A stretch of 28,791 nucleotides of DNA from a virus. The notes beneath the pieces are model-generated. The model did not search any database. It worked only from the letters and a program-made list of their open reading frames with translations, and had not been told where the DNA came from. Of this stretch, positions 2,596-28,791 are shown piece after piece. The position numbers and the translations under genes were made by a program. Position 1 is the first letter of the stretch. Every line of letters begins with the position of its first letter. Location of the stretch: positions 1 to 28,791 of IMG/VR virus record IMGVR_UViG_3300050821_003523; one strand, written 5' to 3'.

Positions 2596-2605
2596 GGGCG
2601 TGACC

Positions 2606-2782
2606 TCAATTCTCACCAAAGAGGTCGTCGCGCCATGTCCTCTTTGCCGGGTCTTTCTTCTTGCGATCATCTAACCGCTTAGGCTGCTTGGCCTTCTCGC
2701 TGGGGACGCGTGTCTGTTGTAGCTGTGTGATAGCTGCTATCAACTCGTCCTCGGACATCTCATCTATCGTTTTGTTCATCAT
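2606..2782 (-). CDS. Small charged protein (58 aa), with a long structured leader
   Basis: The sequence reads MMNKTIDEMSEDELIAAI at the N-terminus, then a Q/K/R-rich helix and ends TWRDDLFGEN. Shine-Dalgarno GAGG lies about 5 nt before the first ATG. It ends 10 nt before the chosen start of the next gene. The acidic-then-basic helical composition suggests a small nucleic-acid or protein-binding factor. No family is recognised. Its 164-nt leader is filled with RNA hairpins, so this gene is the most likely target of that regulation. Confidence 0.65.
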   Translation of the reverse strand: MMNKTIDEMSEDELIAAITQLQQTRVPSEKAKQPKRLDDRKKKDPAKRTWRDDLFGEN

Positions 2783-2792
2783 GTGCCTCGAT

Positions 2793-2866
2793 GTAGGGGA
2801 ATTATCTCTCCCAGTTTACCCCTACGTCCGGCCCGCTGGGGCTTATCCAGCCTCCCGGGGAGAGGC
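2793..2866 (-). promoter_or_regulatory. Hairpin series in the leader of the 58-aa gene
   Basis: Three inverted repeats lie downstream of the three-way-junction element on the transcribed strand. They are GCCTC/GAGGC (2850-2866), GCCC-GCTG-GGGC (2831-2842) and GTAGGGG/CCCCTAC (2793-2825). The last is a 7-bp stem with a 19-nt loop ending 3-4 nt from the Shine-Dalgarno. Together with the element at 2877-2935 they occupy almost the whole gap, which is unusual for a simple spacer. Confidence 0.6.
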
Positions 2867-2876
2867 GCGCACGTAA

Positions 2877-2935
2877 CCGTTGTCAGCAGGCGTTGCCCGT
2901 TGGGGCAATTGACGCAGTGCGTCCACAGACAACGG
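2877..2935 (-). ncRNA. Candidate three-way-junction RNA element
   Basis: On the minus strand an outer 8-bp stem, CCGTTGTC/GACAACGG, closes two perfect inner hairpins. These are GACGC-ACT-GCGTC (5 bp, 3-nt loop) and TTGCCC-CAAC-GGGCAA (6 bp, 4-nt loop). The junction linkers are 4, 2 and 8 nt long. All 19 pairs are Watson-Crick. It lies in the 164-nt gap between the 98-aa and 58-aa genes, in the transcribed orientation. I see no hammerhead, twister or HDV ribozyme core and no U-tract. It could be a riboswitch-like leader, a protein-binding site or an RNA-processing site. The structure is predicted by eye only. Confidence 0.5.
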
Positions 2936-2946
2936 AATGCTCAAGG

Positions 2947-3243
2947 TCAGAGACCGAGGGACTCGAGGTACTGCGCCCGCTTGCGCTCCTTGGGCTCGGT
3001 GTCGACGCTCTTCATGAGCTTCGCCCGCTCGACGCCCTGCAGGTAGACGACATGCGCGTTGATGAAACGCCTGAACACGGCCTTCTCACCGAGCAGTGCG
3101 ACCGCGTCGCCGATGCTGGCCGGTAGCTCTGCCTCGAAATCCTGCTCGGACTTCTCGTCGCCACCGGCCTTGGTGGAGACCTTGAGAGTGACGGTCTTGA
3201 CCTGAGCCTCGTGCTTGTCTGGGACGTTGATGCTGGATGCCAT
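2947..3243 (-). CDS. Conserved-looking phage protein of unknown function (98 aa)
   Basis: The start (MASSINVPDK) follows GGGAG about 7 nt upstream. The first half is beta-like (AQVKTVTLKVSTKAG), followed by an acidic linker. The second half is helical, with GDAVALLGEKAVFRRFINAH and then QGVERAKLMK. The compact two-part layout and good Shine-Dalgarno support a real gene. I do not recognise a family. It is flanked on both sides by hairpin-bearing gaps, so it may be expressed somewhat independently of its neighbours. Confidence 0.75.
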   Translation of the reverse strand: MASSINVPDKHEAQVKTVTLKVSTKAGGDEKSEQDFEAELPASIGDAVALLGEKAVFRRFINAHVVYLQGVERAKLMKSVDTEPKERKRAQYLESLGL

Positions 3244-3272
3244 GAAATCTCCCTTCTATGGGCTTCAATTGT

Positions 3273-3341
3273 GCCCGAAATGGGCTATAGCAAGACACTG
3301 CAAAAATGGGGCCAATTTCGGGGTGCCAACTGGAATTGGCA
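3273..3341 (-). promoter_or_regulatory. Hairpins in the leader of the 98-aa gene
   Basis: TGCCAA/TTGGCA with a 6-nt loop (3324-3341) begins directly after the stop of the upstream gene. A shorter GCCC-GAAAT-GGGC hairpin (3273-3285) lies nearer the Shine-Dalgarno. On the transcribed strand a run of five T follows the first stem only after about 17 nt, so it is a poor intrinsic terminator. Confidence 0.45.
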
Positions 3342-8011: not shown

Positions 8012-8071
8012 TGGCGGTATGCCGCCAAGATTAGCCCCCGCTTGGCGCTTCAATTGCTTGAAGCGCCAAGC
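8012..8071 (-). promoter_or_regulatory. Two perfect hairpins in the 109-nt gap, one with a 14-bp stem
   Basis: GCTTGGCGCTTCAA-TTGC-TTGAAGCGCCAAGC (8040-8071, split here into two arms of 14 nt and a tetraloop) is a perfect stem. A second hairpin, TGGCGG-TATG-CCGCCA (8012-8027), lies nearer the next gene. No U-tract follows on the transcribed strand, which argues against an intrinsic terminator. The long stem could serve as a transcript 3'-end barrier or an RNase III site. Confidence 0.7.
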
Positions 8072-8085
8072 AAGTGGTAATCTTG

Positions 8086-11550: not shown

Positions 11551-11742
11551 GTGTCTCTCCTGTGCGTGTAGTGGTACGGTTGGACCGTCCATTGGGTATA
11601 CATGCAAGTCCTGTGCCACACGTTTTGGGCTTGATGTGTGGGCTCAGCTCGGCTATACTCGCAATGGTCTGAGAGTAATAGTTAAAGAGCATGTATTCCC
11701 CACCTCCCTATATCTCAGTCTTGCAAATTTCATCGAAGTATA

Positions 11743-11795
11743 TGTGGATAATCTATCTCTTCTTTTTATTATTTTTTTTTAACATATATAGAGAC
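11743..11795 (-). other. Candidate replication origin: DnaA box plus A/T-rich tract
   Basis: The minus strand at 11743-11751 reads TTATCCACA, a perfect match to the strongest bacterial DnaA box. It is followed within 6 nt by about 40 nt that are almost pure A/T with a run of ten T (11768-11780) and TATATA, which would melt easily. This arrangement is that of a minimal host-dependent origin. Only one perfect box is present, so chance cannot be excluded. Confidence 0.5.
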
Positions 11796-11953
11796 AGAGA
11801 TTTGCAGGATTTGACCGCTGATTTGAGGCAGCTTGAGCGTGGCTATGACTGAGAGAGAGCGTGATCTAGAATACATGCTCAATAACTATAACATGAGGCG
11901 TCATGTTGTAATCTCTTGTTGCCACTTCAACGAATTGAAATGATACGCAGCAA

Positions 11954-27654: not shown

Positions 27655-28791
27655 GGCTCTCGTTTCGGGGAAGATTCTTGACACGGATACCATACAGGCG
27701 CTCCTGCCACGCCTTACTACACAGGACGCTCTCCTCCAGTGGAGCCGGCAGCTTGTTGATTCGCTGCAAGATATACTCATCGGCAAGCGCAGCCAGATTA
27801 GCCCCAACGCGATCGTAGGTGGGGTCTGCCAGCCACCATGTGGTAGCGGGGGCACCGCAGGTCCACCAGGACCTCCAGGGCCGGCGGGATCTACCGGCTC
27901 CGCAGGGCCGGCCGGACCTACAGGGTCCACGGGTCCCGCTGGTCCAACGGGTCCTGCGGGCTCGCAAGGACCGCAAGGACCACCAGGTACAACTGGCGCG
28001 CAAGGTCCACCTGGCACGACTGGCGCACAAGGTCCGCCAGGCTCGACAGGTCCTGCTGGCCCAACGGGTCCGGGCGTGCCAGTGGGCGGCACAGCCGGTC
28101 AGGTACTGACGAAGAACTCTGCCACCAACTACGATACCATATGGGCCGCTGTCACTGGCGGTGGCGGATCGCCGACTGGACCTGCGGGCGGGGATCTAAC
28201 TGGAACGTATCCGAATCCTACACTTACGCCCGCTGCAAAGTCAAAGTGGGCGCTTTCGAGTGCGACGCTTACGCCAGTTGATCCTACTGTAACGACGCTA
28301 GCGTGGGGCCCAGGAACAGTAAAAGGTGACTTGAATATCAACGCGGCTGGGACTATCCTGGGGATGGACCTGAACTCCTACAGTGCGCCCCAGGATCTGA
28401 CCAAGCCATCGTGGCTGCTCCAGATGGAGACAGTTACAGACGCGTTGCACGTCTATCGTCGTGCGCCGAACGCGACGGCGGGCACTGTCACCGAGATGCT
28501 GCGAGCGGATGCCGCGGGCAAGATAATCATCCCTGGCCCCGCTGCTGCCGGCGCTGATCAATCACAGCTTGTTCTCGGGACTGGTGCGGCCAAGGGGCGT
28601 GTCGCGGCGCTCCCGGGGCTCGATTGGTTTGGGCTCGCCTATAACGCTTCGTATAACGGAAGCGCGTGGGTTCAAGATAACACGGCTAAGCCATCTTGGC
28701 GCTGCTACGAGAACGGAGATGGCTGGGTTATTGATCGCTTGGCGCCTGGCGGGACGCCTTCGACTCCGCTCCAGATAGATTCAGGGGGCAA
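27647..28791 (+). CDS. Collagen-like tail fibre, 3' end cut by window edge
   Basis: The GTG start ([16 protein letters not shown]) has GGGGAG 6 nt upstream; an ATG at 27623 is an alternative. A helical base with CQPPC (about residues 57-65) is followed by about 24 Gly-X-Y triplets, including repeats of GAQGPPG. Then comes [16 protein letters not shown], a hinge motif common in phage fibres, and a beta-rich C-terminal part that is still open at 28791. Such fibres use the collagen triple helix as a stalk and the C-terminus for receptor binding. Confidence 0.85.

Follow-up and report, generated by a model that had tools for sequence, protein, structure and literature searches.

The locus examined here raises the question of whether the 164-nt gap at positions 2783-2946, which lies between two conserved minus-strand genes encoding proteins of 98 aa and 58 aa, carries a structured RNA, and which part of it is conserved among related phages. 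The window, meaning the whole stretch of DNA that was analyzed, is a 28.8-kb piece of DNA from an uncultivated bacterial virus of soil (IMG/VR record IMGVR_UViG_3300050821_003523); it encodes a terminase, an SU10-type portal, an exonuclease, and a Sak4-like protein. No match to the window was found in cultured phage DNA.

The gap and its predicted fold

Homologs of the upstream 98-aa gene (2947-3243, minus strand) were found in 15 contigs, with a further fragment in L005, and homologs of the downstream 58-aa gene (2606-2782, minus strand) in 16 contigs. In total, 16 IMG/VR contigs supplied homologs of the two proteins, and the comparison covered 17 related records. Past these two genes the order continues with a 111-aa gene, the exonuclease, a 77-aa gene, and Sak4. 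The 98-aa protein had no match among cultured phages, was absent from the bacterial and archaeal genomes searched, and obtained neither a match nor an identity from AlphaFold and Foldseek; the 58-aa protein matched no Pfam or PHROG family. The conserved acidic-hydrophobic tail of the 58-aa protein (WRDDLFGE, 2606-2626, minus strand) resembles clamp- or polymerase-binding tails, a resemblance only. Other repeats in the window were an inverted repeat of 28 nt with 86% complementarity and a 4-nt loop (8026-8085), an imperfect inverted repeat of 46 nt with arms 126 nt apart where gene direction switches (11675-11892), and a 9-nt periodic repeat (GGxCCx-like) that suggests a collagen-type Gly-x-y stretch (27869-28071).

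Homologs of the 58-aa protein use the second ATG (2777-2779) as their start, so the gene probably encodes 57 aa. Because these homologs either share the start of the window gene or have an N-terminal extension absent from the window, the gap looks non-coding in the window phage. The extension, in frame and about 35 aa long (MILWKTxNGPRPYGTTTxEI.YYR...), was found in L009-L016 and L018 and was missing from the window, L007, L008, L017, L019, L020, and L021.

A preliminary description of the gap, made from this one sequence, had proposed a fully structured leader whose main element was a three-way junction. That the gap is a folded leader before the 58-aa gene was borne out, though as a whole it was only mildly more stable than expected by chance: the minus-strand leader had a predicted energy of -66.5 kcal/mol vs -57.9 +/- 4.3 kcal/mol for dinucleotide shuffles (z -2.0), and in this comparison, one of the checks that had been suggested, 9 of 200 shuffles were at least as stable. 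The junction (2877-2935, minus strand) had been drawn as an 8-bp outer stem closing two hairpins, and the predicted fold agreed with the drawing (5 and 6 bp, with 2 extra pairs). Taken alone it had a z of -3.1, for a segment picked after the fact because it was foldable. The plus strand of the leader folded as well as the minus strand or slightly better. Since the leader was only mildly more stable than shuffles, the junction was chosen post hoc, and the plus strand did equally well or better, stability was not decisive and comparison with relatives was needed.

Comparison did not support the junction as the RNA element. Only the nearest relative, L021, shares its sequence (a GCACUGCGUCAAUU stretch), which is folded there as a different, single hairpin. 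The junction is specific to the window, lies outside the conserved element described below, and was rejected as a candidate.

A covarying pseudoknot before the start codon

Among the relatives, both the length and the sequence of the intergenic regions vary widely, and the motif that was conspicuously shared was a hairpin with the loop UAAAGCGAGGGGAUAAUU before the start codon. The conserved element of which it is part was present in 7 of the 17 related uncultivated phage records, with one copy in each. Six copies are in the same gap (the window, L009, L010, L012, L021, and L018), and the copy in L020 precedes a gene whose product carries ParB and N6/N4 methylase domains. In the window the element is a predicted mRNA leader segment of about 75 nt (2793-2867), delimited by covariation and by a blind descriptor scan; it and all of its parts given below are on the minus strand.

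At the core of the element is the hairpin at 2793-2825. About 32 nt upstream, a pyrimidine strand pairs with the purine-rich loop of this hairpin. The hairpin stem, S2, is formed by GUAGGGG (2819-2825) and CCCCUAC (2793-2799), with all seven pairs present in the window. Over the seven copies, 49 of 49 S2 cells were paired (permutation p 0.001); among the six copies other than L018, every pair of the 7-bp stem was intact, three pairs varied on both sides, and no shuffle matched the observed score. The loop consists of L2, UAAACU (2813-2818, consensus URAAGC), a purine tract GGGAGAG (2806-2812), which is the 3' strand of a second helix, S1, and L3, AUAAUU (2800-2805), which is invariant in six copies; both loop segments were read from alignment A4.

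The 5' strand of S1 in the window, CUCUCCC (2858-2864), is the best complement of the S2 loop, and 1.2% of shuffles gave one as good. In the other copies as well, the letters just before the loop AUAA pair with an upstream pyrimidine strand, and this is the best available helix in each upstream region. The S1 pairs were CUCUCCC/GGGAGAG in the window, CUCCCG/CGGGAG in L012, CCCCUC/GAGGGG in L021, CUCCUC/GAGGGG in both L009 and L010, and CCCCU/AGGGG in L020. L018 proved to be a divergent seventh copy that was missed by the covariance model, with S1 formed by CCCCAC/GUGGGG and S2 by CAGGGUCC/GGACCCUG. Over the seven copies 41 of 42 S1 cells were paired (permutation p 0.005), in a sample of seven sequences of which some are related and four have an identical S1 3' strand.

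A third helix, S3, lies directly 5' of S1, where NGGY pairs with an RCCN just before S2. In the six copies other than the window all 24 of 24 S3 cells were paired, with exchanges of AU/UA/CG and UA/CG/UG, and 6 of 720 permutations were as good. S3 is weak in the window copy, which has at most 3 bp between CGC (2865-2867) and a tentative 3' strand GCG (2834-2836) that corresponds to the RCCN of the other copies and is not clearly conserved here. This possible strand overlaps a variable hairpin, GCUGG(AUAAGCC)CCAGC (2835-2851), which is located between the 5' strands of S1 and S2, is part of the minimum free energy (MFE) fold, and is kept in position and not in sequence. The strand order S3, S1, S3', S2, S1', S2' corresponds to two kissing hairpins, in which the S1 5' pyrimidine tract opens the loop of the small hairpin S3; S1 and S2 alone form an H-type pseudoknot.

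Alignment of the S1 and S3 strands was manual. A MAFFT alignment of the seven condensed sequences (A5) misaligned L018 and the window copy, so S1 and S3 were counted by script for these two, and alignment A6 has one misplaced gap, which limited the S1 count on A6 to four pairs. For those four pairs and the seven of S2, 100% of the A6 cells were paired and 5 pairs were changed on both sides, vs 29-71% paired when the registers were slid. The covariation in six copies exceeded that of all shuffles and all slid registers. Spacing between S1 and S2 was 31-36 nt in six copies and 23 nt in L020. On the gene-sense strand there were five G-U wobble cells and no A-C cells, which indicates that the structured molecule is most likely mRNA; the plus strand folds slightly better, but the wobbles suit only the minus strand, and the plus strand was rejected as the RNA.

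Nested MFE folding, which cannot score pseudoknots, included S2 in the window, L018, and L021 and lacked it in the other four copies. The pairing of 2806-2812 with 2858-2864 is invisible to such folding, and it takes a strand that the preliminary description had assigned to a hairpin at 2850-2866. That hairpin and the one at 2793-2825, also drawn there, were both confirmed as hairpins; the latter is conserved, whereas the former conflicts with the conserved pseudoknot. Of the drawn structures, only the 2793-2825 hairpin showed the compensatory changes that the preliminary description had named as a check; the junction is kept by no homolog.

A blind structural scan, whose only requirements were S1, S2, AAG or AAA in one of the loops, and AUA in the second, was applied to the 503,541 bases of the 17 records. 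It recovered six of the seven sites and one further site that is likely due to chance, whereas three shuffled sets yielded none; L020 was missed because S1 there has 5 bp. The covariance model gave a single strong copy in each record and no other convincing match, and a dispersed repeat was rejected on this count. A chance fold in a GC-rich gap, for which the whole-leader z of only -2.0 and the small number of sequences could speak, is already disfavoured by the compensatory helix changes, the constant spacing, the recovery of L018 by structure alone, and the empty shuffled sets, and we regard it as highly improbable. The comparison of copies shows the fold, the strand, and a position 0-26 nt before a start codon, and the conserved pseudoknotted mRNA leader element is very probably real.

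Distribution and resemblance to known elements

The element is confined to a single family of uncultivated soil phages. Searches of cultured phages and of bacterial and archaeal genomes did not find it, and a pattern built from the L018 variant matched L018 only. Matches to a loose pattern (L023, L024, L028, L030, and L075-L124) were rejected: beyond the known copies, none joins a matching S2 stem with an S1 strand. Within the family, 10 of the 17 records are without the element, and its presence is scattered over the tree of the 98-aa protein, which is poorly resolved. The gap is short in five relatives (L011 and L013-L016) and holds other long hairpins in L007/L008 and L019/L020. In L017 an HNH endonuclease gene (424-921, Pfam HNH_3) lies between the 98-aa and 58-aa homologs, which marks the gap as an insertion site. 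The scattered presence, the short gaps, the other hairpins, and the HNH gene indicate that the element is dispensable and has been either repeatedly lost or moved.

The alternative stem in L007 (3295-3370) and L008 (686-760) is formed by GGGGCCAUCGGGC and its complement, in a pair of sequences too similar for a covariation test. The hairpin in L019 (3283-3385) and L020 (3286-3390) is very stable, at about -52 kcal/mol in two distant relatives; its stem letters differ, AGCrGACCGCCC is common to both, and it is a second candidate structured RNA. Such hairpins suggest that structure recurs at this junction between genes while its form changes, and they would suit a processing site or mRNA-stability structure that uncouples the 98-aa gene from the later genes, its proximity to the start codon being incidental. 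The element's location after a different gene in L020 also fits such a site. A stabilizer requires neither a pseudoknot nor conserved loop letters, and five relatives manage with a short gap, so this explanation, while possible, is unlikely.

Rfam 15 contained no family that matched at the gathering threshold in the window, L009, L010, L012, L020, or L021, in a search that the preliminary description had recommended, and permissive searches of the window, L021, and L012 gave only chance matches outside the element. H-type pseudoknot riboswitches include SAM-II and preQ1. The element resembles them in the crossing order of S1 and S2, in its A-rich last loop, and in its place near a gene start; it differs in its conserved letters, its third helix, the lack of an Rfam match, and a downstream gene that is not metabolic. 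A small-molecule riboswitch, with the pseudoknot as an aptamer whose ligand alters access to the start site, would account for a compact pseudoknot that adjoins a start codon and keeps the loop letters AUAAUU and URAA invariant. We nevertheless consider it quite unlikely given the absence of an Rfam family, the non-metabolic downstream genes, the restriction to one phage family, and the altered invariant letters in L018.

The order helix-AAGC-helix-AUAA recalls part of the twister ribozyme core. Permutations of twister have been discussed (PMC10085705). In contrast to twister, the element has no conserved cleavage-site block and no P2, a 7-bp S2 replaces the short tertiary helix, and AAGC is lost in the window copy. 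Even with permissive thresholds, the twister models matched nothing in the window, L021, or L012, and there were no conserved letters outside the element. Twister or another ribozyme was thus rejected by the Rfam result and the missing cleavage-site block, in agreement with the original impression that no known ribozyme core is seen.

In cluster K mycobacteriophages, a 13-bp start-associated sequence (SAS/ESAS), GGGATAGGAGCCC, with an SD inside it, is found before start codons in 11-19 copies per genome, some with inverted repeats upstream (PMC3203893). The element shares with it a short conserved GGGATA...CCC form just before start codons, but reads GGGATAATTCCC, has no internal SD, is present once per record, and forms a covarying pseudoknot. 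No copies of the GGGATAGGAGCCC type were found before starts except a partial GGGGATAGGACCC in L018, and copy number and letters rule out SAS. A DNA element, either a promoter with GATAAT as its -10 for short or leaderless mRNAs or a dyad operator, draws on these outer letters, on GATAAT lying 6-15 nt upstream of possible short leaders, and on the lack of a following SD in L009 and L012. There is no -35, L018 has no GATAAT, duplex-DNA binding does not require compensating stem changes, and the wobbles suit one strand only; this reading is very unlikely.

Possible role in translation initiation

The 3' end of the element is 0, 6, 13, 13, 15, 22, or 26 nt from the start codon of two unrelated downstream genes, and in L012 the AUG directly follows the last stem base. 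This proximity makes translational control the best-supported role, although in a compact phage genome, where any gap is near a start codon, position is weak evidence of function. Neither an intrinsic terminator or attenuator (a G+C-rich stem with a T run) nor a sigma-70-like promoter was found in 2600-3300, so the promoter and terminator readings were rejected and attenuation is not supported. The suggestion of a new riboswitch, attenuator, or protein-binding leader is otherwise right in kind, in that a covarying structured RNA with no Rfam match precedes the start codon. We see about an even chance that the element is a translational control element of the downstream gene.

An SD-like GAGG (2786-2789, minus strand) is 6 nt before the ATG at 2777-2779; the Shine-Dalgarno placed after the stems in the preliminary description fits this second ATG. 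Three mutually exclusive pairings are open to GCCUC at 2862-2866: with the S2 loop in the pseudoknot (through the shared letters 2862-2864), with GAGGC at 2850-2854 in the hairpin of the preliminary description, and with GAGGC in the SD region at 2785-2789, to which it is paired in the nested MFE fold of the window. These partners suggest a choice between two states: the pseudoknot, which leaves the SD free, and a fold in which the SD is masked. The element may be a cis-acting structured leader RNA by which initiation of translation at the downstream gene is controlled. Its folded state would abut the initiation region, probably stabilized by a phage or host protein; on opening, the anti-SD-like S1 5' strand would pair with the downstream SD (in the window, GCCUC 2862-2866 with GAGGC 2785-2789). 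Because L009 and L012 show no SD between the element and the start, one masked-SD switch cannot account for all copies. In our view the likeliest kind of control would be autogenous, exerted by one of the proteins encoded in the recombination operon around the element (exonuclease, Sak4).

The closest analogue is the gene 32 mRNA pseudoknot of T4 and RB69, an autogenous translational operator of about 28 nt located 67 nt upstream, with A+U-rich UUAAA repeats after it to which gp32 binds; the homing endonuclease gene segG can occupy the gap at T4-type gene 32 (PMC3014915, PMC535899). Both are phage mRNA leader pseudoknots upstream of a start codon in a recombination or replication context, here found by comparative evidence for S1 and S2, and in both systems the gap can hold an endonuclease gene (segG there, HNH in L017 here). 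The present element differs in its length of about 75 nt, its kissing-hairpin type, and its position 0-26 nt upstream. No UUAAA repeats were found in those 0-26 nt and no gp32 homolog was identified adjoining the element; the downstream gene encodes the 58-aa protein without a Pfam or PHROG match or, in L020, the ParB/DNA methylase.

Folding of a single sequence singled out the wrong part of this leader, and comparison revealed a pseudoknot hidden from such folding. A 2010 review raises the possibility that no viral pseudoknot other than that of T4-type gene 32 is used in translational autoregulation (PMC3014915), and phage leader pseudoknots supported by comparison seem rare. The seven natural variants with compensatory changes make the fold and its effect on translation directly testable by reporters, with no phage culture. 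That relatives keep the fold and change the letters points to a probably genuine element for the control of protein synthesis. We tentatively propose, at somewhat less than even likelihood, that it represents a new class of leader RNA in phages, a translational operator built from intramolecular kissing hairpins and specific to one uncultivated soil phage family, which may have moved between the start sites of recombination and DNA-modification genes and would be read by a phage protein.
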